Of a stretch of 64,000 bases of DNA, positions 16,821 through 64,000 are shown piece by piece (position 1 is the stretch's first letter; the number at the start of each line of letters is the position of its first letter). This DNA is from Symbiodinium sp. CCMP2592 (Eukaryota; Sar; Dinophyceae; Suessiales; Symbiodiniaceae): positions 124,001-188,000 of the forward strand of contig CAJNDT010000498.1 of assembly GCA_905221615.1 (NCBI GenBank), written 5' to 3'. A program made the position numbers and the translations under genes. Under the pieces are notes generated by a model. The model was not told where the DNA came from. It worked only from the letters and a program-made list of their open reading frames with translations, and ran no database searches.

Positions 16821-17093
16821 ATCTCCACACGGATGGCTCTGGCCCTTCTTGATGTGTAACTAGCCCATTAGTATTTTGTTCAACACCTCCAACAAATTAG
16901 GAAAACCCCGACCCATTCAAGTGTGTAGTGAAGTGTGATCATTGGTAACGCGTGAACTCTTTGAAATCGCTACGGTAGCTTGCTTGCGTCATTGCATCAA
17001 CCGCTGCATTGCTCGTGACATCCACAGCATCGAATGAGCGGACATCGAGACAACGTCTGCCGGTTGAGCCCGTGTGGGAGAAGCACAGTGTAG

Positions 17094-17282
17094 ACCTGCC
17101 ACGACAGCGTCCACAAGAAGCACATTAACAGCATCTCAGGTTTGCCCCAAAATTTCCAGACTCGCACGCTCATCCGCAAAGAAGTGGCGAAGAGAAAGAT
17201 CCGCGAAATGCACCCACAAGAGATTTTTGAAAGAAACCTCAGCAGTGCTGTACTTCCGAGGGAATACACACAAGAGATCTAG
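17094..17282 (+). CDS. basic exon ending in a 46-bp tandem repeat
   Basis: Open for 63 codons after a TAG. It reads SVHKKHINSISGLPQNFQTR, TLIRKEVAKRKIREMHPQEI, then FERNLSSAVLPREYTQEI and a stop. The end overlaps a 46-bp tandem repeat (CACACAAGAGATCTAGATTG type, three imperfect copies to 17335). Function unknown. Confidence 0.4.
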   Translation, partial: TCHDSVHKKHINSISGLPQNFQTRTLIRKEVAKRKIREMHPQEIFERNLSSAVLPREYTQEI

Positions 17283-17537
17283 ATTGAAAGATGTATTTCC
17301 TAGGGATTACACACAGGAGATCTGGATTGAAAGAGACGAATGTAGATGTGGCTAGATACTGGAAGCATTCAGGCAAGCCGACCAAGTACAGTGTTTGCGT
17401 GACTTTCGTTTTGAGTGCAGATGTCCACTTCAAGCCAACACCAAACAGAACCTGACCATCTAAGCTCCCCTCTTAACCCGAGAGCCCTAAATCCAAGCCC
17501 TCGGCCGGACCCCAGCCGGAACCTTCAGCACCCCAAA

Positions 17538-17640
17538 TGGGTAGTTGTCAAAATTATAATGTCCCTTTTTGGTACCCTAAATATTAGGCGCGTATCATAT
17601 TAGGGACCCAAAACGGGACCCTAATTTTGACAACCACCCA
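17538..17640. mobile_element. MITE family A, copy 1
   Basis: About 103 bp with inverted ends TGGGTAGTTGTCAAAATTA / TAATTTTGACAACCACCCA. The interior has GGTACCCTAAATATTAGG. Related copies are at 31424 and 33935. Confidence 0.75.
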
Positions 17641-18896
17641 AATCTTGAACCCTTCTCCGAGGTCAGCCTCCTTCTCCTCGAAAAGAGGGGCGGGTCTCGC
17701 TTCTTTGCCTTGCAGCAGACGTCATGTCCTCAAAGAGTCCTCAAACCATTGAGGCACGTACAGTGCTTTGTGGTTGCATGGCCTTGCATCATTAATCTCA
17801 CTGTCTCTCACAGATTCCACGTGACTACAGTATGATCCTGGTTTCCGTGCTTTGGATCGTGAGGCGGGGGTTGCGAGAAGACCTTGGGGATTTTCGAGAC
17901 CGCACTCGAAGTTAAGAACGATGCAGACCCTGTGATCTGGCACACGGACCCTCGACCCCAAACCACTCATACTCATGGCAGCAGTCTGCAATCGGTGGAG
18001 AATCTCAGCGATTCATAGCCCAAGGAAGACAACAATGTAGACTGTGATTTTAAACAGACTACAAGCTAGATTACCCGTAACCCGGCATGATGGTTCTTCG
18101 AGAGTTCACAAGAACATTTTCTCTATGAGATGCCTTTGTGTTTTGCACGCCTGTAGACACTCCCAGACGGCGAGTGCATGTATAGAATGAGATCGTTTCA
18201 GCCTCAGGCAAGATCGTGGCTCACCTGTCATGTTCAAGTCCGGGCAAAAATGTCCCAAGTACTCCGCAGTCCAAGGTTCTACCTCGTTGAGCCCCGCAGC
18301 GACAAAGGGTACTTGCTGTCAGTGGGGCACTTGATGTGTGGACACTGCAGCTGCGCAGAAGCTGCAGTATGTCTGATGCTACCTTGCACCACCTGTCGCA
18401 GTCGCACCACTCTATTAGCATGATGAATCGCAAGATGCCATTTGGACAAGGACTGCTTGGGCCGTTGAGTCCAAAGGATTCACACGCTGCTGTAGAAGAT
18501 ACTCCTGGGTGACATAGAAGACATGGCTCCTGGGGTGGGCAATTGAGATCAAGAGCGCGAGCGCTGCATGTATTTATGGGGCTGGACGGTGCCAACATTA
18601 TATGATGACACATTAACAGTCCCGAAGAAGAGAAGCGAAAATGAAGATCACAGTCGAAGTGATAACATCGTTTACAATCAGAATCATAAGCGTTTACATG
18701 CAGCCGAGGCCGAGGCTGTCATAGTACGAAAAGTAACATACGGATCGCCACGGACCCCGAAACTCTGAACCCCGATGCTGAAACTCCTGAACTCCAAACT
18801 CCTAAGCCCGAAGCCCTACGGCCAGGCTTCCAAACTCCTATTTTCCTAAACCCGAAGCCCCTTAGCCTAAACACTGAGATCTTGAACCCGATCGAG

Positions 18897-18960
18897 CTGG
18901 ACATGCCGGCCGTCTTGAAGTCCCACCAGGCGCCTCAGCGCAGAAAGTTTGAAAACAATT
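18897..18960 (+). CDS. small exon (DMPAVLKSHQAPQRRKF)
   Basis: Follows a C-rich heptamer tract (18750-18890) and acceptor CGATCGAG. Reads LDMPAVLKSHQAPQRRKFEN. G-rich tract begins about 19000. No family recognised. Confidence 0.4.
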
Positions 18961-19678: not shown

Positions 19679-19778
19679 GCAGAAGCCAGAAAGTTGGAAC
19701 ATGCCGCTAAAGCAAAATATAATTAGGGAACCTAGCACTTATCCTCCTAAACCCATGTTCCAACTTTCTGGCTTCTGC
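19679..19778. mobile_element. 100-bp element with perfect 25-bp inverted ends
   Basis: 19679-19703 (GCAGAAGCCAGAAAGTTGGA...) and 19754-19778 are perfect reverse complements. The interior is AT-rich. Sequence differs from the other MITE families; GTTCCAACTTTaAGG also occurs at about 19112. Confidence 0.75.
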
Positions 19779-20445: not shown

Positions 20446-20699
20446 GCCTTAACTAAGAGTTGCTTTGATATCCTGGTGGTGACGATGGCCATGGTGATAC
20501 TCAAAAGAAGAAGACGATGCTGTTGTTGATGATGATGACGGCGACGACGATCATGGTGATGAAGACAGGATCGCCCCAGTTGAGAAACTGTCGCGAAGTC
20601 CCAGCGTCACCATAGCGCCGTCATCATGACAACACTGCTTTCATCGTCAGTAAACCTGTCAGGACCCCTTCGTGAAGACGATCACGGATGTTGGCATAC

Positions 20700-20996
20700 C
20701 CAAGGCTTGAATGTGGTTGGGGCGGTTATGAGCGACTGTCTTGCAAGGTTATTGAGGGAAGGCTGTGCGAGCTTCCCAGTTTCAGGTTAAATCAAGACCT
20801 CGTAGTATGTGAAAGGTGCTGTTTCCACAATCAGGCTTTTGCTGTTGCCTGTCCAGCCTGCGCGGCAATCTTGAAGGCCTGTGAGCACTACTCCACACAG
20901 TTCGCAGCTTTCCTGCGAACTTGTGAGGACCTGCATTTTGTTTGTGCGGCAGTCGGTGTTCAAGCAGCTTACGACCAATTGCAGCGGGATTGTTGA
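20700..20996 (+). CDS. Cys-rich frame (CxxC ... CxxC)
   Basis: An open frame reads VCERCCFHNQAFAVACPACA, then ILKACEHYSTQFAAFLRTCE and a stop at 20996. Two CxxC pairs 15 residues apart could form a zinc site. An acceptor-like CCTGTCCAG lies inside, so the true exon may be shorter. No family assigned. Confidence 0.35.
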   Translation, partial: PRLECGWGGYERLSCKVIEGRLCELPSFRLNQDLVVCERCCFHNQAFAVACPACAAILKACEHYSTQFAAFLRTCEDLHFVCAAVGVQAAYDQLQRDC

Positions 20997-21045
20997 TGTC
21001 GAGACAGAAGATGCAAGTTCAAGTTGTGACAAGTGAAAAAGCGAG

Positions 21046-21097
21046 AAGAATCAGGACTACGTGGGGGACCTCTTCGTGCCCAAGATAGGCAGGGATG
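21046..21097 (+). CDS. 17-codon exon (KNQDYVGDLFVPKIGRD)
   Basis: Acceptor AAGCGAG|AAG and strong donor GATG|GTAAGG. Reads KNQDYVGDLFVPKIGRD. Typical micro-exon; function unknown. Confidence 0.5.
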
Positions 21098-23090
21098 GTA
21101 AGGGATTATTCCTATGATCACGACGCCGTGCCCAGTGCAACTGCAAGCAGGAAGCATACAAGAAAGTTTGTCAAGCGTACTGCTGTGGATTCGATTCTTT
21201 TCTGGCTTGGTCGGGGTGGGATGTAATTCTTTAGATATGGGTCAAAACTCCAGGATCGGAAAGCTTGGAAGGTACCGATCTGTCCGCGTTCGGTACTCTG
21301 CATGATGAAGCTTCATGGAGCCCGTTGCAAAACGGCTGTCTTACGTAGGTCTCTTGCATCGTGATCATTCTTCAGCCTAGAACTCAAACCTGAACCCTAA
21401 TTAACATCCCTAAACCCTTGAAGCACTTAGGGGTGTCAAGAGATGGCAGAAGGAAATCAAAACTCTACAGCTCTGCCAGGCCTTTCCGAGGCCCATGTCT
21501 TCAAGCAATCCGGCGCGAGGGGCCTAAACACTCTGCCCGTTTTTCAACTCTAAACCTGGGGGTTGGGGGTTTGGGGCTCAGGGTTTCGGGTTGGAGGCGC
21601 GTTCAAAGGCTTTGCAATGAGGTCCACCCTATATGAGATCGAGACGAGAAGAGACCTAATAGCAGGATCCTCATGTGAGCACCTGCAAACAGAAGCGGGC
21701 TGTTTCCACGCTGAGTTGGTTTCCAAGGAGCTGCAGCCATTGCTACAAATTGTCCAGGAGGACGTGCGGCGCCTCCTGGTGACTTGGAGAGATTACAGTT
21801 GAAGTACCTACGTCGTGTTAGGGTTTCGGGTTTAGGACTCAGCATGCAGTTGTAGTTTTTTGTGGAAAGGGAAATTGAGGTTTACGGTTGCTTCTGTAAT
21901 GCAAAGTGCTGCAGATGCTATCTACTTAACACACACGGCTGGGGCATTGCTACAGTGTGCGTTTGATTAGCCTCGATTTCATGAAATTCGGTGGTTTGTC
22001 ACGGCATAGCGGGAATCTGCTCAACCTAGTCGCCAAGCAAGGCTGTCGCGGAGATCTTGGTGTGAGATGCCGGTGTTATCTTGTCTTGCGGGGATCAGGA
22101 TGATTGTCATCATGGCCACAACCCACTGTCCAGCTGCGGACTGTGTTGAGCTGTCAGGATCATGAGCTCTGCTGTCTTTGTCAGGGCTCGTTCCAGCCTC
22201 AAAGCCTCAAGTGTGGAAAGCCTCAATATCCGCTTTCCTCAGTCTACGAGGGGTGGGAAGGCCCCTTATACATCAGGAATTCCCAATTCCACCCCTAGGA
22301 GGTTTGGCAAACCATTTGAAAGCTTGACCTTACTAAACGCTGGTTAATTTTTTAAAAGAATTTCACCTTATCAAGCCCTACTAAGCCTTGTTACAGCTGG
22401 TTACTTAGATAACCTAGCCGTATGTACGACTTATTTCACTTCATTTCAGCTTGCCAGGCCGTACACATGAACCCTAAAATCCCCGGTAGCCGCCTCTAGA
22501 ACCTCTTGCGCTACTACCCCGTCAAAGGAGCCCGAATAGATTCGAAGCCCAGGAGCGACCGGACTGGGTTGGTAAGGCAGGGCCTGCAGCAGGGAGCATT
22601 CCAAGTTGTTTGGGATTTCGTGTTTTGGGTTTTAGAATCCTACCCCCCCTGCCTATGCCCTTCTGCGGCCTAATGTTTGTTGGTTCTGAAAGGTGTCGTC
22701 AGGGTCTCTTCGGGACAATTGCGGAAGGGGGAGTTTCGACCTGCAAGAGCTTAGGTCTTGGTCGCGATGCACTAAGTAATCTCATGCTTCCCGGGAAATT
22801 GAATCTTGAGTCATTGCGCTTTCTTAAAGACCATCAAACCGCAGGCTTAAGACTGCTTGGACGTCGAAACCTTCGCAGTGAATAGTTCTTTCAGTGGAAC
22901 ATGAACCCGGGGCAGACATCTGACAGCCACTGAAACCGACCTTAGAGTGTCGAAGCCCTGACATGGAAGGCTTGCTTGGAGGCATCCTCGATGAGAGTTT
23001 CAGAACATAAGGAGTGTTAGACCCTGATCGCCAGAACTGCTGAACAAGGACCCTTATTTTCAACGGCCTCCAAATCTCACTGACCGACAG
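21098..23090. other. intronic or intergenic, weak exon candidates only
   Basis: C-rich heptamers at 21370-21420, a candidate exon at about 21468-21518, G-rich tract 21555-21600, a candidate EDVRRLL exon at 21757-21778 with donor CTG|GTGACT, and G-rich tract 21815-21840. At 22104-22298 a Cys-containing frame (SCQDHELCCLCQGSFQPQSL) could be coding. An AT-rich stretch lies at 22316-22450. Confidence 0.35.
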
Positions 23091-23213
23091 CTGCCTTACC
23101 AGGGCACAGAGGATGTCGACGTTGTCATGGCCGTGGCTGATCCCATGGGCGAGGAGATCCTGCCGGAAAGCATGGCTCGTACCCTCCAGCGACCACTGCT
23201 CGGAGAGCTCATA
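23091..23213 (+). CDS. LOV/PAS photoreceptor gene, exon 1 seen
   Basis: Acceptor CCGACAG|CTGCCT and donor CTCATA|GTACGT bound exactly 41 codons, phase 0. Reads LPYQGTEDVDVVMAVADPMG and ends ARTLQRPLLGELI. The segment lies directly before the LOV core; VVMAVADPM recalls the strand that opens many LOV domains, though spacing to the next exon is unusual. It is placed in this gene by position and phase only. Confidence 0.5.
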
Positions 23214-23806
23214 GTACGTAGTAATATGTCATCAGGAGCATCCTGGCAGGCCCTCTTTGGCCTAGCCCTGCTCCAGCAGAAGCGGTAGCAGTAGCAACAT
23301 CACGATGGTTGTCAGGGAGGTCGCTGCTCAAGTTATGAGTTTGGGTAGTCAATGCAAAGCATACTATTCGTGTTAGTTTGTATTTAGTATTTAGTTATGG
23401 TCTCGAAGCTGTTCACGTGCATCCCCTTGGTGTTCTTGTTCTTCTGGCTGGACTGGCTCCTGAGTCTGTAAGAACGGTAGTTGGCAACACATCTTTCAAT
23501 AGTCATCTACTGCCTGGTGCCATTATGTCTTGTCATTGCTCCCGAGACTCTTATTGTGATTCTTTGCCCTGTCACTTGGGCGTTATCTAGCTCGTACTTT
23601 TCAAACCTTGAACTACCCTTGCCAGGTACCCACTTACAGACAACATTCATAGAATAATTACAGAGTCTACAACATTACAAGCAAACCTCTTCCGATCCTA
23701 AACTCCATCACCTGAACCCTGAGCCGCAGCCCCTAGACCACTGAACTTAAACCCCAGCCAAACCCTGAACCCTGACCCTAAACCCTCTTCACTTCTGGCG
23801 TTGCAG

Positions 23807-23869
23807 GACTACCCCCTGGTCTGGATCTCCCAAGGATTCGAGGAGCAGACGGGCTACCAGCGCGAGTGG
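23807..23869 (+). CDS. LOV domain exon (start of the core)
   Basis: Acceptor GGCGTTGCAG|GAC. Twenty-one codons read DYPLVWISQGFEEQTGYQRE plus Trp, matching the strand and helix of LOV/PAS domains (pattern PxVxxSxxFxxxTGYxxxE). The next exon continues VLGRNCRFLQ, and canonical LOV spacing requires the cut after Trp, which makes the donor TGG|GCCAAG. This is a GC donor, as known in dinoflagellates. Confidence 0.75.
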
Positions 23870-23934
23870 GCCAAGGGCCCCAGGGGGTCGAGTCGACCGC
23901 TTCAGGGGCCGTTACTATATGAGTATTCGTACTA

Positions 23935-24010
23935 TTTTATTATTATTATTACTATTATTATTATTACTATTATTATTAATAGTGCTGCTATTATTATTAT
24001 ATACTATTAT
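23935..24010. repeat. (ATT)n microsatellite
   Basis: Imperfect ATT/ACT repeats for about 75 bp within the LOV gene intron. Confidence 0.9.
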
Positions 24011-24040
24011 GATGTCGATCTTAGTCAGTGTTTAGGGTTT

Positions 24041-24130
24041 AGGAGGGACCCTTAATGGGGACCCCTACCCCATAATGGGCTATATATTGGGTATATAATA
24101 GCTATATTACGGGTATATACCTGGAGGTCC
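24041..24130. mobile_element. MITE family D, copy 1
   Basis: AGGAGGGACCCTTAATGGGG then CCCCATAATGGGCTATATAT. The reverse complement of much of this is found at 34031-34099. Confidence 0.6.
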
Positions 24131-24206
24131 TTTGTTGAGCCCTTTTCGGTTTCGGTCTTAGTCAGTCTCCTGTGTTGTATTCTACTCCCCAACCTTCACA
24201 GCGCAG

Positions 24207-24261
24207 GTCCTAGGGCGAAACTGCCGCTTCCTGCAGCCCAAAGGCGGAGAGCCGGAGGGGA
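24207..24261 (+). CDS. LOV domain exon with the photoactive-cysteine motif
   Basis: Acceptor CAGCGCAG|GTCCTA; reads VLGRNCRFLQPKGGEPEG. GRNCRFLQ is the diagnostic LOV motif, and its Cys forms the flavin adduct in blue light. Donor GGGGA|GTGTGG leaves phase 1, which fits the phase of the exon at 24950. Product: blue-light sensor, cellular role unknown because effector domains are not identified. Confidence 0.8.
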
Positions 24262-24284
24262 GTGTGGTTTCGAGCATGATACTA

Positions 24285-24387
24285 TGGGAGTTTCCGAAAA
24301 TAGGGGTACCTTATTTTTAGGTCCTTATAATAAGGATCCTACTATTGAGGGTACTATATTAGGGTCCCCTATTTCCGGAAACTCCCA
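24285..24387. mobile_element. MITE family B, copy 1
   Basis: Inverted ends TGGGAGTTTCCGAAAATAGG / CCTATTTCCGGAAACTCCCA, interior GGTCCTTATAATAAGGATCC. It sits 24 bp after a LOV exon, inside the intron. Copies at 56251 and, partial, 46701. Confidence 0.75.
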
Positions 24388-24949
24388 GATGGCTGTGCTG
24401 TCCGGACTTCTCATAGTACACAAGATCACTAGGAAGGACAGGACAGAATGCAGGGAGACCCGCCATGACTTAAGCACGGCTATCCAAGGGTGTCAGGTTT
24501 GTGGAGTGTTAGGACGACCTGTACAGAGTGCAATGCCACCAAACTCTTCTCAAGTCTTTAGCTCGATTCTAGCCGAGGCTTGTTCTTGAGAAGTGCCCAA
24601 GAGAGTAGCCAATGGCTGGCCAAACTTCTCCTTATGCAGCCCTTCGGTCGGCGATGCCTGCTTGTTGCGACGGTCACTCTGCGGTTCGATACTGCGGTGT
24701 GTTTGATGGGAGGAGTCCATCTTCCGACATACCGCATCGGACCATCGCATGACTTGACACTGCGAACACACGGTTACAGAGGGGGGCAGCCCCTTCAAGA
24801 GTCCCCACAAAAATAGTAAGAATTGTAGTAGCAATATTAATAATAAGAGCAATAATAATTGTACTAATGCTAATTTGGTATAAATACTAACATAGCAATA
24901 AAAATAATCACAAAACGATCTCCTGGGCTATCCGACTATCCGTTTGCAG

Positions 24950-25056
24950 ACCACGACCGCAACGAGCGGTTCAACGGCGATCAGCTCGAGAAGCTCCGCC
25001 ACTTCTGCCAGGCTTCCAGGCTTCCCGACTTGGCCAGGGAGCTTATTCTGGGACCA
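24950..25056 (+). CDS. LOV gene, following exon
   Basis: Acceptor CGTTTGCAG|ACCAC. With one base from the previous exon it reads HDRNERFNGDQLEKLRHFCQ then ASRLPDLARELILGP. This is the position where dinoflagellate LOV proteins, as I recall them, have a helix with an FCxA segment. Donor CCA|GTAGTA, phase 0. The rest of the LOV core (the strand with a FWN-type motif) was not found in the next 3 kb. Confidence 0.6.
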
Positions 25057-25235
25057 GTAGTATTATGATTATTATTGCTATTATTAACACTATATTAATA
25101 TTCTACTATTATCAATATTACTAGTACTATGATTGATTATTCTTACTATATTAGTATGAGTACTATTATTATTATCATTATTAATGTTGTTACTACTATA
25201 ATTGCTAGTCTTATGACTATTATTATTACTATTGG
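25057..25235. repeat. (ATT)n/(TTA)n microsatellite tract
   Basis: Imperfect ATT, ACT and TTA triplets directly after the LOV exon donor. Confidence 0.85.
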
Positions 25236-25551
25236 ACATCAGATCTACAGGACTAGGCGACTACGCAGCAGTTGAGATTGTTGAGGTTCTAGATGGGGCC
25301 GTACGAGGGTTAGAGCTTGCACGAAATGGGCTCGACAAGTTCATGCACAAGAGCCGGTTACCCAGACAAGTATTACCCTCCAATCACCCAGTTCTGAAAG
25401 CAGCAAGCCCTGGGCAGCGAGGTGTCGGTACAGGATGCGACAATGTATGGCCTTTCCGTATTTCTGTACTATTTCAACTCCGTCTCAGTGTTTCTTTCGC
25501 AGTCAATCCCTGTCTCTTCTGCTTATATATACTTGTAAATATACACATATG

Positions 25552-25582
<31 letters not shown>

Positions 25583-25600
25583 CCACTCACGAGCTTCTAG
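25232..25600 (+). other. open frame of uncertain status
   Basis: Reads DYAAVEIVEVLDGAVRGLEL then ARNGLDKFMHKSRLPRQVLP, which is protein-like, and ends in a (TA)n microsatellite at 25555-25580. No splice sites fixed. Confidence 0.3.
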
Positions 25601-25886
25601 AATGGGCAAGCTCGTGATTGCATCTTTGACATCCTACGCAGGCCCAGGGGTAATTCGTTGTGTACAGTGTCGACATGGCTGGCACTTAAGTCAAAGATGA
25701 TCAACGAATAAATGCAACCCCTTATAGCAGCCCAAGTAGAGCCCCGCAGCGAACCCAAAACCCAGAGACTCCAACATCCCTTAATCAAGGAAGGTATCCT
25801 AAATCATATTAGGGATCCCATTAACATTTCAGGTATATTCCTTAATTACGGGATATTGGAGTCTCTGGGAACCCCGTTGGTTGAAG

Positions 25887-25961
25887 GCAGAGTCGCCGGC
25901 CTACGCTCACGAACACCTTCGCCCTGCTGCTAAACGAGCGCAGGCCGACTCCAACGAGATC
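25887..25961 (+). CDS. 25-codon exon (AESPAYAHEHLRPAAKRAQA)
   Basis: Acceptor GGTTGAAG|GCAGAG. Reads AESPAYAHEHLRPAAKRAQA then DSNEI, helical in character. Ends at TGA or at a GA-type donor. Family unknown. Confidence 0.45.
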
Positions 25962-27559
25962 TGACGAAAGATGACACGGGGTCGAATATTTTGCAACAAG
26001 TATATGAGACCGTCTAAGTCCCCGTGCGGCAATATGCCACAAAATTTTCCAATCATTAGGGCTCCAATACAACTAGTAATGCTAGCATGTCGCAATACAG
26101 TTGTAAGAACGAGCAGACAGGTACTGATTCAAAAAGAGCATCGTTGTTGCCAGGGTCAGTATCCGAGGTCATTCTGCTGAGGACATGCGATTCTAGCGCC
26201 TCTTATTGTCCCTCGCATCGGTTTTCTTTATCATTACTGCTGCCGCTGTTGTTGCTGTTGCTGCTTCTGCGGCTGCTGCAGCTGGTCGTGCAAGAGTTCC
26301 TCCTTTGACGACGACAGCATGATTATGCTCACAATCTATGTTGGCAGCCGTGGGCTGCGAGTGAGGTAAAGTTTGCAAAAACATAAGTTGGGCGGCTATC
26401 TGGATCACATCTGCCACGGGAAACAGTGGTACTACTCCGATGGTTCCTGTTTTCCGGAATCAGCATCAACAACGGCATCGGCATCATGATTACTGCTATG
26501 ATCATCACAGCAAGAACCAGGGTCATCAATTAATAGCGAGATTGAAGGCACCGAATTTCATGTCTTTGCACTTAGCCGCCGCGAGGTGTCGATGCTTATG
26601 TCATGTGCATATGTTGTGCGTACACAAGCATATTCGCATGTGTGTGTGTATATATGTATTATGTACACACACACGCACATTTGTAACCAACATGATGCCG
26701 TGAAACTGTTGCTGGTGCCAAGCTGCTAGTCCAGGCCTATTGCTAGTCATGATTTGTGCAGCTTGCTTCCAGCAGGAACAGTTCACCGTTCTGGAACCTC
26801 AGCAGCTACCTCCATGTAGAGGCGCATCTGGGGCAGGGAGCGAAGCATGTACAGCTCTTAGGCCACGTCTTCGGGCTGGGGTGAAGACCCCCTCCTGTGG
26901 AGCCAAGACCAGGATGCTAAGTTTCCGACTTTCGGCCATGAGCACGAGTGATCCGATCCTCCTTGACCCGCAAGCCTTGGGTTCAGGTCAACGGAAAACC
27001 CTTCATCGTTTCGTTAATGCTGCCGTTCCGCGAGGCTCGGAGCTGAATGCTTGCAAAGGAGCCCTTACATCACCGTGGATGCGAATAGACAGTGCTCTGT
27101 CTTTCGTAAGCCGTACCAAGCCTCGTCGGGAAGCGAGTCCTGTGTTTTGAAGCATTGGTGCATCAGTCATGGTCGGTCTATAGCGGTTCTGGACTCACGA
27201 GAACTCAGATCAGTTTGCATCACCACATGGCAACCATAAGCCAAGGTTCTCATTTCGGTACTGCAGGCATGTTAGCGGTGTGGCTCCACTATATCTGGGT
27301 GCTGATACCTGTCACAGTCAGGACCACGTTAGGCCCAGGATTCTCATGTCTGGTACTGAGATGGAGTGGTGAGACATAGCCGCACGATGTAGCAGGACCC
27401 TGTCTATGAAAGTCATGCTAGTACCGTTTACTGAGACTCGCATGGATAGATGCCGCGAACTCGAAGAACGATCCAACTCCTGAAACCCGAAATCCATAAA
27501 CAGCGCCTGAAGCCTAAACCCATAAAGACCACAAAGGCCAAAGAAGGACCTGAGCCAGA
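25962..27559. other. no gene I can support
   Basis: Contains a GCTGCTGTTGTTGCT-type triplet tract (26235-26285) and a TG/CA tract near 26630-26680. A 136-codon frame (26740-27150) has no domain and no clear splice sites. C-rich heptamers begin near 27480. Confidence 0.3.
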
Positions 27560-51409: not shown

Positions 51410-51419
51410 GTACATAGTA

Positions 51420-54565: not shown

Positions 54566-54719
54566 TAGAAGCCAGGATTGCGGAGAGCAACATTCATAAC
54601 TGCAAGAGCTTGCTTGTAAAGTTCAAAGACGGTCATTAAACCAATCGGAAAATGTGGTGACGTGGAGAGGAAGGAAGGATCAGCAGTGTGTGTGGCATAC
54701 GTGGTTTAATATGTCGTAG

Positions 54720-54843
54720 TGCAGGCTCCAGACACAGGCTGCACGCGTTCAGAGCTAAGGATCTCCTCCGAGCCTCCAGGACGGCTGACATCATCGCGGA
54801 CGCTCGGGCGCAAGCTGCTGAGTATAAGGGGAATTGCAATAAG
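54720..54843 (+). CDS. exon (AKDLLRASRTADIIADARAQ)
   Basis: Acceptor TGTCGTAG and donor AATAAG|GTGGGC. Reads AGSRHRLHAFR, AKDLLRASRTADIIADARAQ, AAEYKGNCNK; phases are consistent. Helical; family unknown. Confidence 0.55.
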
Positions 54844-55600
54844 GTGGGCGAAACGTCCCGCGTCCCAACCATATAAGCTCAAGTTCGCCCATATTCGCTG
54901 AAGAGCTGCCAGGAAAATTCAATAGATATCCGACTCCTGACTCTTGGTCACGTGCTGGGCCGCTGCATCCAGACCAGACCGGGATTATAACCCTTATTCT
55001 CATTTTGGGCTTTACCTCCACTATATGCCTGGAGACGATCCTCTAGCCACCGGTTCATACTTATAGTCCGCACGTAGCCCAGGGTAAGCACAGGTAACCA
55101 GCCCACGGCGGCTGCGTGGTCAGGTCATCTCCATGCTGCGGGAGCAACAGCAGCAGAGAAGCCAGATAACCTGCCTTCGCTGCTATTCTTGCTCCTGCAT
55201 CATGGTTATGGCCGTGGGATCAGGTTTCGAGGTGCACAAACAATGAACAGGACCACCGTGCAATCTTAGCGCAGCGATCCACAGGACACAAGGTTGCTCG
55301 GAACCGCTCAAGCATTGACCAACTTGTGGTATGAAAGAACTCACCACAACGTACCGGGCCAAGTGTTTCTGCGAACTTCGAGCTTCAATTTGAGGCCAAG
55401 CGGCCAGATGGTAAAAAGGCCATGTCAACTCACCATACCCATTTCCGGAATACAGTTGACCGCACCTGGCAATCGTCAATGACATACAATACAGAGACAT
55501 AGTACGTAATGTTAATCTAGTGTCGTACATGATACAGTATATCAGTACAAAATATAGTATATTCGTATACAAGATGGTACGTAATACTATTCCTATGTAG

Positions 55601-55718
55601 TATATCAAGCTGCGAAGTGAACGGGGCCATGACCTGAGGCTGCCAGTCCCCGCAAGCTGCACCGAGCGACGGATGCAGGCTGACGCCAACTCGCTGCGGG
55701 AGGATATTCGACTTTCGG
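55601..55718 (+). CDS. exon (YIKLRSERGHDLRLPVPASC)
   Basis: Acceptor CTATGTAG. Reads YIKLRSERGHDLRLPVPASC then TERRMQADANSLREDIRLS. A G-rich tract starts at once (TTCGGGCTTCAGGGCTT). Confidence 0.5.
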
Positions 55719-55856
55719 GCTTCAGGGCTTAAAGAGACTTAGAGTAAACTTGATCAGGTTTGAGGATATTAGGCTTTAGGGCTTTAGGGTTTAATGACTT
55801 AGAGTAAACTTAGAGGGATTGTTCGTTTGTTAGTGTGTGTTGTCTCGGTTTCCTAG

Positions 55857-56019
55857 AATTTCAAGGGGAGCCCCAGAAAAGGAATCGTTTTGTTTCCTTC
55901 CGGCAAAGGACCCAATCTACCGGGGAGTTGTCGAGTGTGAAAATGCAGGCGCCATATTGCAGAAGAAGCTTCTTTCAATAAGCTCTAAACACCTCCCCCA
56001 TCTGGTCAACAACCTGTAA
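55857..56019 (+). CDS. exon (LPAKDPIYRGVVECENAGAI)
   Basis: Acceptor GGTTTCCTAG. Reads SRGAPEKESFCF, LPAKDPIYRGVVECENAGAI, then LQKKLLSISSKHLPHLVNNL and a stop at 56019. Likely last exon of a gene or of a splice form. Confidence 0.45.
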
Positions 56020-56146
56020 CTTTCCAAGTGGCAATTCCTTGCAACGCAGTGCACCCCGAAACTCAAGCTACCACAAGCCCCAAACTCTGAAGCCCTGAAC
56101 ATTCCTTCAACCCTCCCCAAGCCCCAGGCCCTAAGCGATTAACCGC

Positions 56147-56249
56147 AGGCTTCCGGGAGATCAACTTCGGGAAGCTTCAGGGATCCAGCTCGGACTGCCC
56201 TGACAGCCGCCGGGCTGCAGAGCTTCCTTCCGGCTGCAAAGGATTGTAG
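56147..56249 (+). CDS. exon candidate after a C-rich tract
   Basis: Acceptor TAACCGCAG|GCTTCC after heptamers at 56060-56125. Two frames are open: FREINFGKLQGSSSDCPDSR or TALTAAGLQSFLPAAKD. MITE B copy 2 follows directly. Confidence 0.35.
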
Positions 56250-56250
56250 G

Positions 56251-56351
56251 TGGGAGTTTCCGAAAATTAGGGGTACCTTATTTTAGGGTACTTATAGTTT
56301 AATAAGGATCCTACTATTTAGGGTCCTATATTAGGGTCCCCTATTTTCGGA
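56251..56351. mobile_element. MITE family B, copy 2
   Basis: Left end TGGGAGTTTCCGAAAATTAG. The right end matches only as CTATTTTCGGA, so it is cut short. Confidence 0.7.
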
Positions 56352-56666
56352 TGCCGTAGCAGATGCCTTGGGTGGGAGGGTGGCAGTGTAGTAGATATCG
56401 GCTGGGACTGTCAGACCCCCCTATGCTGGCATGCGAAAGTGTCTGAATCCCAGACGTAAGGCAAAGCGCTCCAGACGGCGAACATAAATGCTCGGCCCCT
56501 AGCAGTTGCTGGCTGACTCTCCTGTGTCGAGTCGGGACTACTTGCTGCATAGGTTCATAGGGCTTGGGGAGCTCAGGACTTGGGCATTCTGGGTGTGTGA
56601 GGGCGTCACGTTGAGAGTACTGAAAGTCTCCGAAGTCTAGGACTTGGCTTTGCTTACCGGCAGGGA

Positions 56667-56880
56667 TTGGCCCCAGTGTTCCTCGTCGTCTTCTTGGTAT
56701 CCTTGTCCTTGTTCTTGGCCTTTCGGGAGCCGGTGGGGGGAAATCTGGACTGGTGGCGATCCTCTCGCGGCACAATAAGTGATACTGCCGGTGTTCTCTT
56801 GCAGGAAATGCAGATAGCTTTAGCTTTGCTGGAGCTCGGGATCTCATGGGACTGCTCATTGCATGACTTCTCCCACAGGT
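56667..56880 (+). CDS. frame with a hydrophobic N-terminal segment
   Basis: Reads APVFLVVFLVSLSLFLAFRE, a plausible membrane anchor, then GNLDWWRSSRGTISDT. After a possible acceptor CTCTTGCAG it reads EMQIALALLELGISWDCSLH. A minus-strand frame overlaps. No ATG at the start. Confidence 0.35.
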
Positions 56881-57477
56881 TGCCCTGTTTGTCTGAATCC
56901 ATGGCCTGAAATATGCGACTGACCCAAAGCATCCTCAAAGGACTCAACACCCTTCGGTTCGAAAAGAGCCCGGCATGGTTTCATCAGCCTGTCCTATGTG
57001 AAGCAAGGGTGTTTCACTCTAAAGTCTTAAAGTGAAATCACGCGGGACAGGCCTGGCTGCAAGGCGACCTCTCCAAGGCCTAAGCAGGGCCATCGCCAGC
57101 AGCTCAACGTAAGGTTCAGGGTTTACGAGGGTTCCTGAGTTGAAGAACCCTCACCAATTCAACTCCGCCTCTGAAGTCGAAGCTCGGACGATGCGAAGGT
57201 ATTCAGTAAGTAAGGCACTGCAAGCTTGCTAGTCGTTTGAGGGAGTCTAGCGGCCTAGCGTGCATGCTCGAAAAGATCAGAAGCATCGCAGTTTTGGAAC
57301 CATGACCTGCATAGCTTACTACACATGCTGCATGCAGCCTGTCGTCGTGACTTACGATGCGCTTCGTCCCTCGTCTTCCCTTCCATCCCAGCCCCCGGAG
57401 CACCTGAACACTGCTTGCAGTAGCAATTTCTGAGAGGGGAGGGAGGTTGCCCATTTCCCTTGCTGCACTTGGGTCAG

Positions 57478-57615
57478 GGCTACCCGGAGGGTGAGGACGG
57501 CTGTTCGCTCATGTCGCGATCGCTTTCAGCACTTCGCAACGCCGCGAAGCTCGGCGAGGTGGCCCGGGGTTTGCGGATGATGTCTTCCCGGTTGTGCCTT
57601 GCAGCCTTACTTAAG
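57478..57615 (+). CDS. 46-codon exon (SRSLSALRNAAKLGEVARGL)
   Basis: Acceptor TTGGGTCAG|GGC and strong donor CTTAAG|GTGAGG, phase 0 on both sides. Reads GYPEGEDGCSLM, SRSLSALRNAAKLGEVARGL, RMMSSRLCLAALLK. Joins in phase to 57791. Confidence 0.55.
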
Positions 57616-57790
57616 GTGAGGAATCTGAGGTCGGTGTTCTGCAACAGGCTCTCCTGCGCAGTGCTAGACATATTTCGTAAGGCCGGCCACCAGTATCGCA
57701 AAAGTCGGCCGAGTTTGTGCTCCCCCATGCCTCTGCGGCCATCAAGCACCGTCAAAGCAGCAGAGGTATATATGATAGGGCTGTCTGCAG

Positions 57791-57874
57791 GTTGTTATCG
57801 TTGTGGCCCACGGCGGCATGTCGGGCCCTCTGCAATCGGAGGCTGTCCGCGATGGCTTTGAGCCAGGGCATCAG
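57791..57874 (+). CDS. 28-codon exon, possible histidine-phosphatase strand
   Basis: Acceptor GTCTGCAG|GTT and donor CATCAG|GTGTGA, phase 0. Reads VVIVVAHGGMSGPLQSEAVR then DGFEPGHQ. A hydrophobic strand followed by HGG is how the second catalytic histidine appears in phosphoglycerate-mutase-like enzymes. The expected RHGE exon was not found, so the call is tentative. Confidence 0.45.
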
Positions 57875-57978
57875 GTGTGAGGTGACAGGCCAGTCAAGAA
57901 GAAGCCGCAGATCGACAGGTGTCAGATCAATGCGGGGAGGGCTTTGGTCAGAACATGTGAGGTTTCACAAGTACTTGC

Positions 57979-58716
57979 GTGATGTTGCGTGTGTTTTTGG
58001 CATGTTTGGGCCACAACGATATCTTGCCCAAGGCGCTTGTTAACTTCAGGCTAAGAATGAATGAAAGTGCGAAGACATCCTGGCACCGAGGATTCGCTGG
58101 AGCGCAGCTCAGATCGAAAGCGGCGAGGTGCCAAACTTGCACAGTCATCACGGCTTATGACGTGCTACATACATGTAGTTACATACTTACATATTCGGCC
58201 TGCCAAGAGGCTCATAGGCCCAAAGGGCTACATTCCCAATGCTTCCAAGTTCGAGGATTGCCCCCGATACAATCCAGGTGCCGCTCCGGAAGGGTGTGCC
58301 TTTCTCCGACCATGCAGCCACGTAGCTCTGACAGCAAAAAGACGGTTGCTAGAGTCGCAAGAAGGACGGGGCACAGTGCCGAATGCATACGTGATCTCCG
58401 AAGCAGGAACAAGAAGCCGATCGGGGTCGATATTCTCTGTGCGTACATGTTGCATTGTCGTCTTGACCCCGGAGAACTGAGGCTGGTGAAGCAGCCGTGG
58501 CTCGGGTGCAAGATGATGTCATCCGAAATAAGCGCTACAGTTGTCAGCTACCATGGAATCCCCGGTGAATCCCCTGTCATGGAGTCTGCGGCATCATACA
58601 GGTTCATTAGGCAGAGGCCGGAAGGGCGGGCAGGCACACTCGCGTGGGGAGCTTTCCTATCCGAAGCCCCAGAAGCCCTTCGGGCTGACAACCTATACCC
58701 TCCCGACTTGAGCTGA
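57979..58716 (+). other. 245-codon frame with a competing frame
   Basis: The longest plus-strand frame of the right part. A second frame on the same strand (58061-58480; GPKGYIPNASKFEDCPRYNP) reads more like protein. Neither shows a domain, so I do not call a gene. Confidence 0.25.
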
Positions 58717-58871
58717 CATGCAAGGGTGGTGAACTGCTGCTGCTCCACCGTGATCTACGACCACGCCTGGGGCTAAGTTGGCCACGCCGCCCTCCGTGCT
58801 ACGATTTATTTATCGTGTTACTATTCCTGCTATGTTGAGCACTGATTCATCTTTCAAAATGTCAACATTAG

Positions 58872-58977
58872 ATCACTTGATGCCCTTTGTGACCCGTATG
58901 ATTCGAAGACTTCTTGCGAGGACTCCGACAGCTTCCACGCGGAAGCCTGGTTTGCGGACCTCCAATCCGTGTCCCAG
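58872..58977 (+). CDS. exon (SCEDSDSFHAEAWFADLQSV)
   Basis: Acceptor CAACATTAG and donor TCCCAG|GTGAAC. Reads SLDALCDPYDSKT then SCEDSDSFHAEAWFADLQSV plus SQ, acidic. G-rich tract begins at about 59040. Confidence 0.55.
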
Positions 58978-59066
58978 GTGAACGCCGTGAAGGCAAAGGA
59001 TGACTCGGGCTGAAAGCCCTCCTCGGATTTTCGACGGCTCAGGGATGTCAAGGGTTTATAAGGATT

Positions 59067-59681: not shown

Positions 59682-59958
59682 GCCCTCCGGTTGCCCCCCC
59701 TAGCCACGTCTTTCAGGGAGCGGATCATTCTAGAGATGCCTTTGCTGCTTTCTGCCGACCCAGGTCTTCGGACCTGACCAGAGCTGGATCCAGACGCCTC
59801 ACGCACAATCTGCCCCTGCCCCGGCAAAGCGTCAGGTTCGAGGCCTCCGAGAAGACTCCACCGTAGGTTTGTCAGGGGCTGCTAGATTGCTGGATCCTCA
59901 AACTCCGAATTGCCCGACTTACCCCGAACCCTAAACTCAGGCCCAGGCCCCTCCGTAG

Positions 59959-60060
59959 GAGAAAAGACGGCAGTTTGAGGCGGCGGCCAGGCTCGGGATC
60001 ACTCCTGCGACCTTGGCCTTGAAGTGGCTGGAGCACCGAGGCCCGGGAGTCAGCGGAAGT
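59959..60060 (+). CDS. aldo-keto reductase-like exon
   Basis: Acceptor CCCCTCCGTAG|GAG. Reads EKRRQFEAAARLGITPATLA then LKWLEHRGPGVSGSV. The pattern A-x-x-L-G-I-T-P-A-x-L-A-L-x-W-L is the C-terminal helix signature of aldo-keto reductases (NADPH-dependent carbonyl reduction, cytosolic), followed by the PGV turn. Other exons of the enzyme were not identified. C-rich tract immediately before. Confidence 0.55.
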
Positions 60061-60422
60061 GTCGAGGGGTGGTGTGCAGTTTTGTAGTGTATACTGTCTG
60101 TGCACGTAGGGAGTGGATAGGTGCGTATCAAAGTACGTACAGACGTGTACGTACATACCTACATATGTATAAGTATGTATTATATAGTTTGCACTACTAC
60201 TATTCCTTCGAGTCTGAGGCCATTGTCCAGGGTCTCATTTTGAGTTGGATCAGTCTGAAGGTTCAACGTCCAGGACTTTCGGGCTTAGGCAGCAAGTTTG
60301 TTAGGAAATTGGTTAACTTATGTAGTTCAGGCCTTCATGTTGCATTCATGCCTGGGGAGTTGATGCAAGAAGTGCTAATGTTTGCGACACATGTCTCTTC
60401 TTCATAGCTGACACGTCTGCAG

Positions 60423-60574
60423 GATTTTTAGCGCTGGTCCCAGAACTCCAGGATCTTTTGAAGCACGGGGCTCGGCTTGATTCGCATGTAATCAGAGCTT
60501 ACCAACTCGTGCAGTGTGAGATTCGGGGACTCGTGCTGCTGCCGTCACCATCTTCAGCAACAGTGCAAGCATAA
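60423..60574 (+). CDS. exon (FLALVPELQDLLKHGARLDS)
   Basis: Acceptor ACACGTCTGCAG. Reads FLALVPELQDLLKHGARLDS, HVIRAYQLVQCEIRGLVLLP and a short Ser tail to TAA. The first part resembles one ankyrin-like helix pair, but a single copy is not enough to call it. Confidence 0.45.
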
Positions 60575-60864
60575 TGCCAATGACGATCGGGATTCAACGA
60601 TCACGACGATGACGATAACCTGGAATTCTAGGAGCATGCATCACCATCATCATGATCTCTGTTGTGTTCCGGCTGGAAGGATGGCTACAAAGTCAGCACA
60701 GTACTGATTAGCAGCTTAGCAACACCCGGAAGGCAAATGACAAAGACTGCCATGCATTTGCATGTTTATCGACGGCTCTTCAGCTCCAGACTCTTTGTGT
60801 TCGGGATGTTTGTGAAGAGAAGTGGCTATCAACATCGAAACCGGGTAGAACAAACATGATTCAG

Positions 60865-61009
60865 GTTGCCAGCGTGGGTACGGTGCAAGGATGCTAGCAA
60901 GAGCCGGGTTCTTGCGAAATGGATGCAAGTACCCTTTGCCCTGGCTTGTCTTGCGGCTTCCACAATGCTTCTTCAACTGCTATTGGCATTGCTCCCATTG
61001 CTGGTATAG
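60865..61009 (+). CDS. exon with a transmembrane helix and stop
   Basis: Acceptor ATGATTCAG. Reads VRCKDASKSRVLAKW then MQVPFALACLAASTMLLQLL and LALLPLLV, followed by TAG. Basic residues before the hydrophobic stretch fit a C-terminal membrane anchor. Confidence 0.45.
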
Positions 61010-61347
61010 TGTCGAGATCGTGAAGCTGTCATGTTGCGGCTACAGAAGGTCCGTAGGTGTTTGCCTTTTGGATTCCAATGTTGAGTTTGATAGTTACTGG
61101 GAGTGGCATCGCCACAGGAGCGCCATGCGATAATGCCATGCTGTGCGGGTAAACAACGCCAAAGCGAGACGAGATGCGCAGAAGCTCGAGAAACATAGGG
61201 CCACCCGCAGCCCAAAACACGGGATTGCGCAGCACGGACAAACAGGGACGTAGAGAATCATGTCTCCTCAGTGGCGGCCCAGACGACGACGAGCATGCTT
61301 CAAAGGCACAATGAGGGCTCGACCGACGGAGTCTTCAAGCAATCGCT

Positions 61348-61596
61348 GTGCACGCAGAAGCAGCCAAAAGCCCTAGCCCTCAACTTATCACCAGTAGCAG
61401 AGTACAGCCGTCTTCAGGTCCACGGAGATTGATGACCATCGCTGGTTCATGCATATGTACCGTGGCCGCACTTTGCTTGCTCAGTGACACACGACAGCTT
61501 GATGTCCTTGGCTATTTCGGTTGGTTTCCTTCCGGCAACGAAGACCAGTTAAACGTGAAGCCGCCTGAGCCAACAAAGTGGTTGTATGACTACTAG
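61348..61596 (+). CDS. 82-residue possible small membrane protein
   Basis: ATG to TAG without interruption. A Ser/Pro-rich start is followed by a hydrophobic segment (IAGSCICTVAALCLL), then GYFGWFPSGNEDQLNVKPPE and the end PTKWLYDY. The C-terminal part is very protein-like and resembles small organelle-membrane subunits in style only. It may instead be a last exon starting near TTATCACCAG. Confidence 0.45.
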   Translation: MHAEAAKSPSPQLITSSRVQPSSGPRRLMTIAGSCICTVAALCLLSDTRQLDVLGYFGWFPSGNEDQLNVKPPEPTKWLYDY

Positions 61597-62300
61597 AGTA
61601 GAAAATGAAGTAGCACAACAATGCAGAACCCTGTTATGCTTCACTCGTCAAGCAGCCATCCCCTACTCTACCGCCACAACTTGGAAGGTACCGCGAGGCG
61701 CCCTCAGTGGAGGCAGGGCATGCGTAGTTAGCTGCAGCTGTGCATGACTGTGTGTATATATATATATGTATATACAGCAAGGTACCAGAAAGGTAGTGCC
61801 TAGTTGTATCTCAACAACTATATGCACGTATGTATGCACGGAAGCGTCCGAATCAAGAAAATAACAAGGACCGTGTGTGCTTTCGAGATAGTCTTCGCAA
61901 GTGCAGCCATACGACAGAATTATCACCACTAGCACCATGGTCACAGACGAACCGCAACACGAGCGTTAAATTCTAAGCCATCGTCCCTAAACCCTAAATG
62001 CATTCAGATCGGATTCCCAAACGCCGAAGCTGTGAGAAGCAAGAGCTCCCTTCATTCCGTCAGCCATTAACCCTCAACCCGAAAACCTTGAGTCCCCAAA
62101 CCCGTGAAGAATTTCGAACACCAAAAGCCCAAACTCTACTCTCCAACCAGAAGCCCTGGAGGGCTCAGCGCAACCACCCACTAAAAACCCTAACACCTGA
62201 AGCCCCGGCCAAAAAAGCTTAGAACAGGAACCTCAGATCTTAAGTCCCTCCTTTCCCTAGAGTAGAACAATTGAAGAAAAGCTCTGAGCTCGAATCTCAG

Positions 62301-62395
62301 ATCTGCATGAAAGTCCTCGTGGCCACCGGCCTCGGGGCGATTCCACCTGCAGCGAACCCCGAGGCGAGCGCCCGGATTCGCAAGATCACAGAGTA
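62301..62395 (+). CDS. exon (KVLVATGLGAIPPAANPEAS)
   Basis: Acceptor GAATCTCAG. Reads ICM then KVLVATGLGAIPPAANPEAS and ARIRKITE before TAG. C-rich heptamer tract before (61985-62215), G-rich after (62400-62890). Confidence 0.45.
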
Positions 62396-62399
62396 GCCT

Positions 62400-62900
62400 A
62401 AAGGGGCTTTAAAAATTACCTATACTATTTTGGGGGGTTCCTTATTATGATTATAGTATAATGTGCCCCGAAACCCTATAAGAATTATTAAGGCCCCTAT
62501 AGTAGTCTATAGGGGGGTGCAGGGGTCAGGGCCCTATAGACTGACTGACATTATTCCCCGGGGTTTCCTGAACATAAGTTCCTCTGTACTTTGAGAGACC
62601 TCCAGACCGTGTTTAAGTTATCAGGGCCCCTATAGAAGAGCTAGGACCCAGAGTAGGCCCTTATTCCCTTTTTGTAGGGTTCAGGTTACCAAAAAGGGCA
62701 CCCTTTTTATTCCTAGGTTACTCTTAGGTTTAGAGAGGTTACGGGTTGAGTGTTCAGACTTTGGAAGTTCCTTGGGGTTGTTTAGGATTTATAGGATTTA
62801 AAGCATTTCGGCTTTGGGAGTAGGGTTTGGGAATTTGGGGTGAAGGCTTCAGTTGGGATTTCGAGCTGAGGGTTGGGAGAAAGGGCAGGATTTAGGAGTA
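62400..62900. repeat. G-rich telomere-like tract and CCTATAG repeats
   Basis: Includes GGGGGGTTCCTTATTATGAT (an element also found at about 51722 as GGGGGGTTCCTTCTTTTCAC), GGCCCCTATAG units, and TTTAGGG-like sequence to about 62890. No gene. Confidence 0.6.
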
Positions 62901-64000
62901 ATGACCACGGGAGGGTTCAGGATGCATTCTGGGGGTTTTCTCGGCTATAGGCTGTTGTTTGCAGGATGTGCAGACTCCGTAAGTCGGATGAGGAGCAGGG
63001 CTACAAAGCAAAACAAGCCTAAATGCCGAAGCAGCGTAATTCCCTGCTTAGCTTGTACCCCGGCAGTTTAAGTCGGGTAGTGCTGCGGAAAGGAGTTCGC
63101 CATCACGACGTGCGTCGGCCAACGCAATCCCGTCTTCGTATCACCTCTCATTGCGTGTTATCCCCCTGGCCCGGTTTGCAGGCCGCACTGTACTTAGCCC
63201 TCAAGCCTTAGACTACACACTGTCCCAACGTCGCAGGAGCCGCAGGAGCCGCTGCAGCCAGTCGCAGCAGCGCCACGGATCTACAGGCGACCCACACAGC
63301 TTCGTTCAGTATTCTGCAGAGAGAGAGATACGGCTTCAGGTTTCCGTCAACCCGCGACCTCCTGCCAACAGAATGAACTGTAGAAACTGCGGTGTAACAC
63401 ACCTCTTTGCGCAAGAACAGCCGCGAACGGCATATCTGGCTAAGCACCCTGGCTCGACGATGCTCCGTCACTTAAGCTTTGCAAATGGCAGAATGGAAGA
63501 ATGGTAGCACCAGTTTGGTGTCTCGAGCTATAGAGTGCGGGTTATTTGGGTATGAAATAGCCAGCAAGAAACCGGCCTTCTCTACGCGCGGACAGGATGC
63601 ACATCAACATCCAATATTTAAGCTTTGGCCAGCACATATCAGCGACAATTGAAGTGAACACGGGCTTCTTTGACAAGCAGTATGCTGCAGTGAGGCATGG
63701 TTGGATCTTGCAGAGGTCTTCAAAACAGAACCTCGAAAGCCACAAGCTCCAAGCGAATATTTTTTACATCTGATCTCAAGCCCATCACAACTTGCAAGCT
63801 GGACAGCCTCCGATCCAACATCCCAAGATCCGGGTCTTTGTCCCAAGAAGCAAGCCGTAAACAGGCCCGGCCCTGCACCAGAGGCAGGCAATGGCGATTA
63901 GGAATGCTTGGAGTGGAGCAGTTGTAGCAGTCAGTTCATGATCTACCATGTAACGTTACGGTTACCTGTACATAGAATTCTGTTTACTAGTAGTTATACA
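62901..64000. other. right edge, weak exon candidates
   Basis: A possible exon follows GTCCCAACGTCGCAG at 63234 (EPQEPLQPVAAAPRIYRRPT). A frame at 63640-63900 has no domain. Nothing firm. Confidence 0.3.

Follow-up and report, generated by a model that had tools for sequence, protein, structure and literature searches.

Telomere-like repeat tracts are strand-polarised about splice sites in a 64,000-nucleotide (nt) stretch of the genome of the dinoflagellate Symbiodinium sp. CCMP2592 (contig CAJNDT010000498.1, positions 124,001 to 188,000 of the forward strand), with opposite orientations at the two ends of introns: G-rich tracts of the TTTAGGG type follow donors, and C-rich tracts of the CCCTAAA type precede acceptors. 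The whole stretch is referred to here as the window, and coordinates are positions within it unless a different gene or record is named. The polarity is a bias, not a rule; half of the window introns are free of tracts, few introns have both arms, and some tracts are reversed. An earlier note on this DNA described such a polarity from the letters alone, and its central point holds, as tract orientation is non-random about splice sites fixed by homology (Fisher p=7.5e-9); several of the coordinates given with it were wrong.

Splice sites were set by protein homology (P0001, P0003, P0008, P0010), and the heptamers were not used. Between adjacent exon anchors, the combination of donor (GT, GC, or GA) and AG acceptor was taken whose joined product agreed best with the homologous protein. 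Among 66 junctions tried, two had no solution and three were discarded for low scores, leaving 61 introns in three plus-strand genes. These introns have a median length of 384 nt and 40 GC, 14 GT, and 7 GA donors, and the internal exons of the genes (n=53) are 24-93 nt long. A tract is defined as a wraparound alignment to (CCCTAAA)n or (TTTAGGG)n with a score of at least 10.

Telomere-like sequence is abundant between 17 and 64 kb of the window. This region has 195 C-type and 129 G-type 10-mer matches; ten sequences from a first-order Markov model have 3-12 and 1-15, respectively, which puts the enrichment at about 15- to 25-fold. The unit is specific: CCCTAAA ranks first (total 340) among 43 units, some of which are rotations of each other and which include all 20 heptamers of the composition C3A3T1. 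The nearest other unit is CCCCTAAA (293), and none of the remaining 19 C3A3T1 heptamers exceeds 132.6. The region contains 33 C tracts and 20 G tracts, of which 24 and 17, respectively, lie inside the 60 mapped introns shorter than 5 kb; the 9 C and 3 G tracts outside mapped introns were left unclassed.

When the 60 introns are divided into halves, all 17 G tracts fall in the 5' half and none in the 3' half, whereas 3 C tracts fall in the 5' half and 21 in the 3' half. None of 982 circular shifts reaches the observed value of 35 (the best shift gives 32). Defining tracts instead as 10-mers with no more than one mismatch (61 introns) gives the same picture, with 60 nt of C-type and 333 nt of G-type sequence on the donor side and 397 nt and 9 nt on the acceptor side. 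The tracts are also close to the splice sites. In the window introns, 34 of 41 tracts lie within 200 nt of a splice site in the matching orientation; 15 of 17 G tracts start 7-90 nt past the donor, and of the 21 C tracts in the expected orientation, 17 end 5-107 nt ahead of the acceptor.

All of the listed tracts are given on the plus strand. G-rich tracts follow the donors at 21515 (tract 21560-21592), 21779 (21818-21889), 22577 (22608-22632), 30688 (30736-30776), 31670 (31707-31824), 35879 (35920-35940), 37285 (37300-37484), 41723 (41730-41787), 43686 (43730-43784), 55679 (55701-55805), and 57078 (57110-57125). Two donors are each followed by a pair of tracts: 36928 (36953-37038, as 36953-36986 and 37001-37038) and 40828 (40845-40969, as 40845-40874 and 40910-40969). 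More distant G-rich tracts lie 157 nt past donor 23870 (24027-24043) and 200 nt past donor 51388 (51588-51677). C-rich tracts precede the acceptors at 23807 (23697-23786), 25887 (25752-25784), 27606 (27475-27526), 30640 (30556-30606), 35513 (35461-35498), 36867 (36843-36860), 37232 (37105-37211), 41651 (41547-41578), 43635 (43548-43629), 47193 (47086-47181), 48712 (48564-48702), 50201 (50158-50182), 56149 (56055-56144), and 59980 (59921-59936), and pairs precede 28400 (28249-28379, as 28249-28293 and 28334-28379) and 32304 (32020-32275, as 32020-32038 and 32239-32275). Three further C-rich tracts are internal: one in the 3' half of intron 39304-39936 (39705-39734), one slightly past the midpoint of intron 39961-40547 (40250-40262), and one within intron 41723-43635 (42967-42996). 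The exceptions are C-rich tracts in the 5' halves of the introns with donors at 35161 (35185-35217), 39961 (40190-40213), and 54169 (54244-54271).

The association of tracts with splice sites extends beyond the window. The gene for valyl-tRNA synthetase (ValRS) lies on the minus strand of contig C225, with its end in stretch L026. The protein P0013 (1047 aa) is 95% identical to a 65-residue piece used as the ValRS query. Aligning residues 410-1047 of P0013 gives exons in collinear order along 33 kb, with 31 of 32 junctions kept. ValRS was chosen partly since the predicted exons of L026 already displayed tracts; the choice was made without sight of the introns in stretches L038 and L039. Tracts are denser in the ValRS introns than in the window, and their polarity is the same but weaker (5' to 3' halves: G 32:20, C 15:25, p=0.035). 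Within 120 nt of splice sites, the counts are G16:C9 at donors (p=0.11) and C16:G5 at acceptors (p=0.013); from 120 to 240 nt they are G8:C4 and C14:G5, and from 240 to 400 nt past donors G11:C2. Pooling all 92 introns (61 from the window and 31 from ValRS) gives, within 120 nt, G29:C11 at donors (p=0.003) and C31:G5 at acceptors (p=6.5e-6). The ValRS and window counts, together with the reversed introns, therefore describe a strong bias that is clearest at acceptors rather than a rule.

Exon-like segments were predicted ab initio in a further 24 stretches (236,023 nt), using a model trained on the window. The 274 predicted segments have 49 C and 18 G tracts on the left and 54 G and 19 C tracts on the right, as compared with C75:G60 and C58:G61 at 387 random positions. 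A preference for G tracts on the right side may be built into the donor model, which gives no such advantage to the left-side result. Counted by stretch, the polarity is followed in 16 and contradicted in 4, with ties in the other 4; when both ValRS stretches and the contig of the window are excluded, the totals are 85 to 32 overall and 14 to 4 by stretch. The positions of the stretches were chosen by hand (e.g., C1:2350001 lies at a long array, L033 is on the contig of the window, and L034-L037 adjoin other sampled stretches). In 20 stretches, intervals of 60-300 nt running from a C tract to a G tract (48, versus 39 from G to C) are more open (p=1e-4) and richer in GC (p=2e-4). Across the entire assembly (1,098,105,373 bases in 5383 contigs), with overlapping copies counted, exact CCCTAAA triplets number 148,652 (75,164 forward and 73,488 reverse), as compared with 1 forward and 0 reverse for the reversed control unit, and the arrangement CCCTAAACCC-N70-100-GGGTTTAGGG (C..G) occurs 12,342 times versus 7,120 for the opposite order (G..C).

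Tentatively, and as the reading we prefer, splicing may filter the orientation of intronic telomere-type arrays, with tracts that act as, or grew from, splicing enhancers. Arrays of CCCTAAA/TTTAGGG, often degenerate, are plentiful in the introns of this genome and would provide the raw material for G- and C-runs. On the pre-mRNA, splicing would permit or favour G-runs of the UUUAGGG kind downstream of donors, most of which are GC, and C-runs of the CCCUAAA kind upstream of the AG|G acceptors, which lack a U-rich pyrimidine tract. The G-runs near the 5' splice site may be intronic splicing enhancers, or the tracts may have grown from such enhancers, and the C-runs near the 3' splice site may stand in for the pyrimidine tract.

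Donors commonly sit in the context GTAAGT; in the 92 introns they sit in AG|GC, and G is over-represented at +8 (in ValRS also at +9). In 78 introns, the pyrimidine fraction at positions -40 to -4 of acceptors is 0.54-0.57, as compared with 0.51 in mid-intron, and C exceeds T; there is therefore no classical pyrimidine tract. Even the 30 tract-free introns have more GGG than CCC after their donors (54:15 at nt 6-60, p=0.006). Taken with the weak pyrimidine content, this excess leads us to think it most likely that splicing would favour or tolerate mainly one orientation at each intron end. The polarity and the low pyrimidine content are observed, and a splicing role of the tracts is inferred.

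Several observations weigh against this reading. Tracts are absent from 30 of the 60 window introns, and the excess of CCC over GGG before the acceptors of tract-free introns is not significant (26:15, p=0.25). The presence of a tract does not depend on the donor dinucleotide or, steadily, on intron length. In the 20 stretches, C-to-G gaps of 60-250 nt are barely commoner than G-to-C gaps (44 vs 32), which is below prediction, and acceptor- and donor-like words beside tracts have mostly no polarity or the opposite one, a comparison confounded by the AGG within G tracts. In ValRS, the counts at 240-400 nt before acceptors are C4:G7, and some introns have the reversed orientation (e.g., 23629-24746).

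Some of the same observations fit the main rival, neutral repeat growth, in which G-run seeds at the 5' ends and C-run seeds at the 3' ends of introns expand by slippage or telomerase-like copying into arrays without a role. This explanation, which we consider somewhat unlikely, is favoured by the composition gradient about splice sites, which persists when tracts are masked, by the GGG bias at the donors of tract-free introns, by the independence of tracts from donor type, and by the tract-free half of the window introns. It does not account for the specificity of the unit (340 for CCCTAAA and 293 for CCCCTAAA versus at most 132.6 for the same-composition heptamers), and the C-run bias before acceptors is weak where tracts are absent.

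A bolder form of the splicing-filter reading is that Symbiodinium splicing has adopted the telomere repeat as part of its code, with UUUAGGG as donor-side enhancers and CCCUAAA as a substitute for both the branch point and the pyrimidine tract at thousands of acceptors. Each CCCUAAA unit would offer a branch-point-like CUAA core and a C-run. The branch-point idea comes from the distribution of CTAAA, with 67 occurrences at the 3' ends (last 100 nt) and 8 at the 5' ends (first 100 nt) of 78 introns; this excess is the tracts themselves, with only 6 occurrences in tract-free ends. We regard this form as unlikely. If it were true, the turnover of telomere repeats would alter splicing.

The earlier note had proposed that introns start with G-rich and end with C-rich repeats that could pair and draw the splice sites together, or that could feed introner-like mobility. 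Few introns have this structure: both arms within 150 nt of the splice sites are found in 4 of 61 window introns (3.4 expected), and both arms are found together in 14 of the 92 introns (10.8 expected, p=0.17), so that the arms have no clear co-occurrence at a score of at least 10. Base pairing would suit ends that are complementary in kind, and the arms are correlated by rank within introns (0.43, p=0.0006, 61 introns), a correlation confounded by the rise of both scores with intron length. Counting perfect inverted repeats (8 nt or longer) in the outer 100 nt at the intron ends gives 23 of 92 introns, as compared with 17.0 for mispaired ends (p=0.053), which would suit pairing and introner termini alike. 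The computed duplex energies of cognate ends (mean -62.06 kcal/mol) do not exceed those of mispaired ends (-62.01 kcal/mol; 49 introns, p=0.47), and we hold pairing to be very improbable.

Introners or transposons with terminal inverted repeats of the form TTTAGGG...CCCTAAA could have made the introns, and would explain the polarity for either direction of insertion. Inverted-repeat introners have been reported in dinoflagellates (PMC7789003 and PMC10666404, as excerpted), and direct repeats at the junctions are longer in the 14 introns with both arms, at 3.7 nt as compared with 2.8 nt in the rest (uncorrected p=0.04). Overall, junction direct repeats are in no general excess (2.92 nt vs 2.77 nt mispaired), and besides the unclear co-occurrence of the arms and the pairing of cognate ends, which is no better than that of mispaired ends, only 2 of 92 introns have a perfect inverted repeat (8 nt or longer) in the 30 nt next to both ends, where mispaired ends would give 1.2. 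G tracts start 15-50 nt inside the donor in 12 of 17 cases, with no common sequence ahead of them by eye. An all-versus-all blastn comparison of 60 window introns, covering this one region, contains no whole-intron family; the similarity between introns consists of shared pieces of 21-124 nt, largely hairpins resembling miniature inverted-repeat transposable elements (MITEs). Introner-like mobility thus finds little support here, and we consider an origin of the tracts as introner termini quite unlikely.

In a further explanation, telomerase would have capped ends broken within introns, and rejoining would have left G-rich sequence on the left and C-rich sequence on the right, with exons that look telomere-capped. 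The C-exon-G order then arises on either strand, and the ValRS intron 24809-25593 has a long near-perfect array (score 245.6). Abutting tracts (0-30 nt apart) are G-to-C in 13 of 77 pairs and C-to-G in 6 of 78 in the 20 stretches. At a looser threshold, exon-centred co-occurrence is found in 8 of 53 window exons (p=0.0085; rank correlation 0.37, p=0.006). At a score of at least 10, it is no longer clear: C before and G after the same exon occur in 4 of 53 exons (2.5 expected) in the window and in 11 of 29 (10.0 expected) in ValRS. Break healing also leaves unexplained why so many tracts lie close to splice sites in the matching orientation (34 of 41 within 200 nt), and we view it as very unlikely.

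The particular sites named in the earlier note fared unevenly against the homology-based map. Among its 12 acceptors, four are exact (23807, 28400, 41162, 48712) and three are within 5 nt (36862, 43632, 56147). The acceptor placed at 30608 is displaced by 32 nt from 30640, that at 59959 is 21 nt from the chosen site at 59980, and that at 51322 is 21 nt from the chosen but uncertain 51301; 42997 falls inside intron 41723-43635. Both strings for the two acceptors said to be CCCTAAACCCTAG are present, but the homology-based acceptors there are 30640 and 36867. Among its nine donors, 35878 is exact, five (31694, 36952, 43692, 51409, 55718) are displaced by 7-40 nt, and 37254 and 58977 fall inside exons. 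The comparison covers 11 of the 12 acceptors and eight of the nine donors, the exceptions being 62301 and 62395.

The three host genes are all on the plus strand. Past 17 kb, the window has no start-to-stop open reading frame (ORF) of at least 250 aa. A composite of three exons encodes LOV/PAS domains and is 76% identical to one Symbiodinium natans protein, PfyP (P0001), and tblastn with PfyP yields a collinear chain of exons at 20.6-30.7 kb. A second composite matched P0003 (partly MMETSP-sourced) and one S. natans protein, and searches with P0003, P0008, and P0010 place two further genes and a continuation of the first. Gene G1 (20663-32808) encodes the PfyP-like LOV/PAS protein in short exons, as located by tblastn with P0001 and P0010 and by splice sites. 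Gene G2 (34661-50256; tblastn and splice sites) has 24 exons and is a relative of P0003, and gene G3 (53137-59010; P0007, P0008, P0011) encodes a histidine phosphatase (gpmB-like). The Effrenium protein P0010 continues G1 at 51.3-52.8 kb and 59.8-62.3 kb, with exons at 51301-52766 (acceptor 51301 uncertain, 51322 possible) and 59767-62350 (59767 and 59980, and a weak one at 62328 with an unsolved junction). If the P0010 model is correct, G2 and G3 are apparently nested in introns of G1 on the same strand. A Pfam scan of two read-through frames at 22-37 kb had no match, and Rfam at gathering scores and a tRNA scan found nothing.

Other repeats are also present in the window. MITE-like hairpins of about 114 nt form a family with copies at 37526-37640, 43235-43348, and 51420-51533 that are 91-94% alike, and similar hairpins are seen by eye in two ValRS introns. 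The hairpin element at 24285-24387 shares 101 nt (88%) with intron 56206-56461. It also has 63 nt (84%) in common with intron 46674-46802, about half of the 128-nt length of that intron, which is a possible candidate introner. Long-armed hairpins of about 100-150 nt lie at 17538-17640, 19679-19778, 25761-25869, 27691-27791, and 31400-31550; by eye they are mostly dissimilar (those at 17538 and 31400 are alike), and an ATTAGGG-like core is frequent. A tandem array of units of about 120 nt (44575-46254) lies within the G2 intron 43686-46493. The left 17 kb has tandem and scattered palindromic AGCCTNTANAGGCT-like repeats (6148-6323, 12832-13191, and nearby) and longer ORFs, in a style unlike the rest of the window.

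The dinoflagellate spliced-leader word is absent from the window. A search with this word matched one viral stretch and four stretches from prokaryote assemblies; a 7157-base viral_contigs record (L001) has it twice on the minus strand (2746-2764 and 2893-2911). A hairpin word searched in viral contigs had 0 matches. Among the sampled stretches, L019, L021, L023, L029, L031, and L032 (GC of at least 0.525) have 0-6 tracts per 10 kb and 11 of the 14 remaining stretches have 18-35, a split of tract density by GC that suggests two genome compartments.

GC, GT, and GA donors without an obvious pyrimidine tract raise the question of how introns are recognised, and a polarised repeat is a testable candidate signal. 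An easily scored repeat at intron ends could also improve gene finding in difficult dinoflagellate genomes, and a role in splicing would tie the growth of telomere-type repeats to intron structure. We know of no interstitial telomeric repeats that are ordered by splice sites. In fish, complementary (AC)n and (GU)n intron ends reportedly pair, a precedent that favours the pairing reading, and such introns are reportedly spliced independently of U2AF2. The Symbiodinium tracts are likewise complementary simple repeats at opposite intron ends, with a different unit, and pairing is unsupported here.

TTTAGGG, the unit of the intronic tracts, is also the telomere unit of dinoflagellates (PMC11453091, as excerpted) and is named as telomere in the excerpt of PMC7023079. 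None of the matches listed, by titles and the starts of abstracts and with subscription journals sparse, links telomere repeats to dinoflagellate introns, and no word beginning with "telomer" is found in PMC9860276 or the main text of PMC8045281. As excerpted, the introner elements of Amoebophrya are similar in their dinoflagellate lineage, complementary motifs at both intron ends, and non-canonical splice sites, and have inverted repeats of 8-20 nt and direct repeats of 3-5 nt that overlap the boundaries (PMC7789003). In contrast, the Symbiodinium tracts are a genome-wide degenerate telomere heptamer, with arms that are largely independent and mostly offset from the splice site. The introner-enriched long introns of Prorocentrum cordatum share long introns, GC, GT, and GA donors, and AGG acceptors with those described here (PMC10666404, in excerpt). 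Their introners are recognised by inverted repeats, 8-20 nt long, no more than 30 bases from the ends, a pattern that, direct repeats excluded, the Symbiodinium introns display in the 2 of 92 cases noted above (1.2 expected); the excerpt of that account names neither heptamers nor a G-to-C polarity. Human G- and C-rich intronic splicing enhancers resemble the tracts in having runs of 3-4 G or C and poor pyrimidine tracts. They are short motifs upstream of the tract, and the G and C motifs are at least partly interchangeable (PMC2481429, as excerpted), unlike the position-polarised telomere-type arrays of Symbiodinium. The nearest known kinds are therefore dinoflagellate introners and intronic splicing enhancers; apart from target-site duplication, on which the junction direct repeats point both ways, the tested mobility features of introners are missing from the Symbiodinium tracts, which have the positional features of splicing enhancers.

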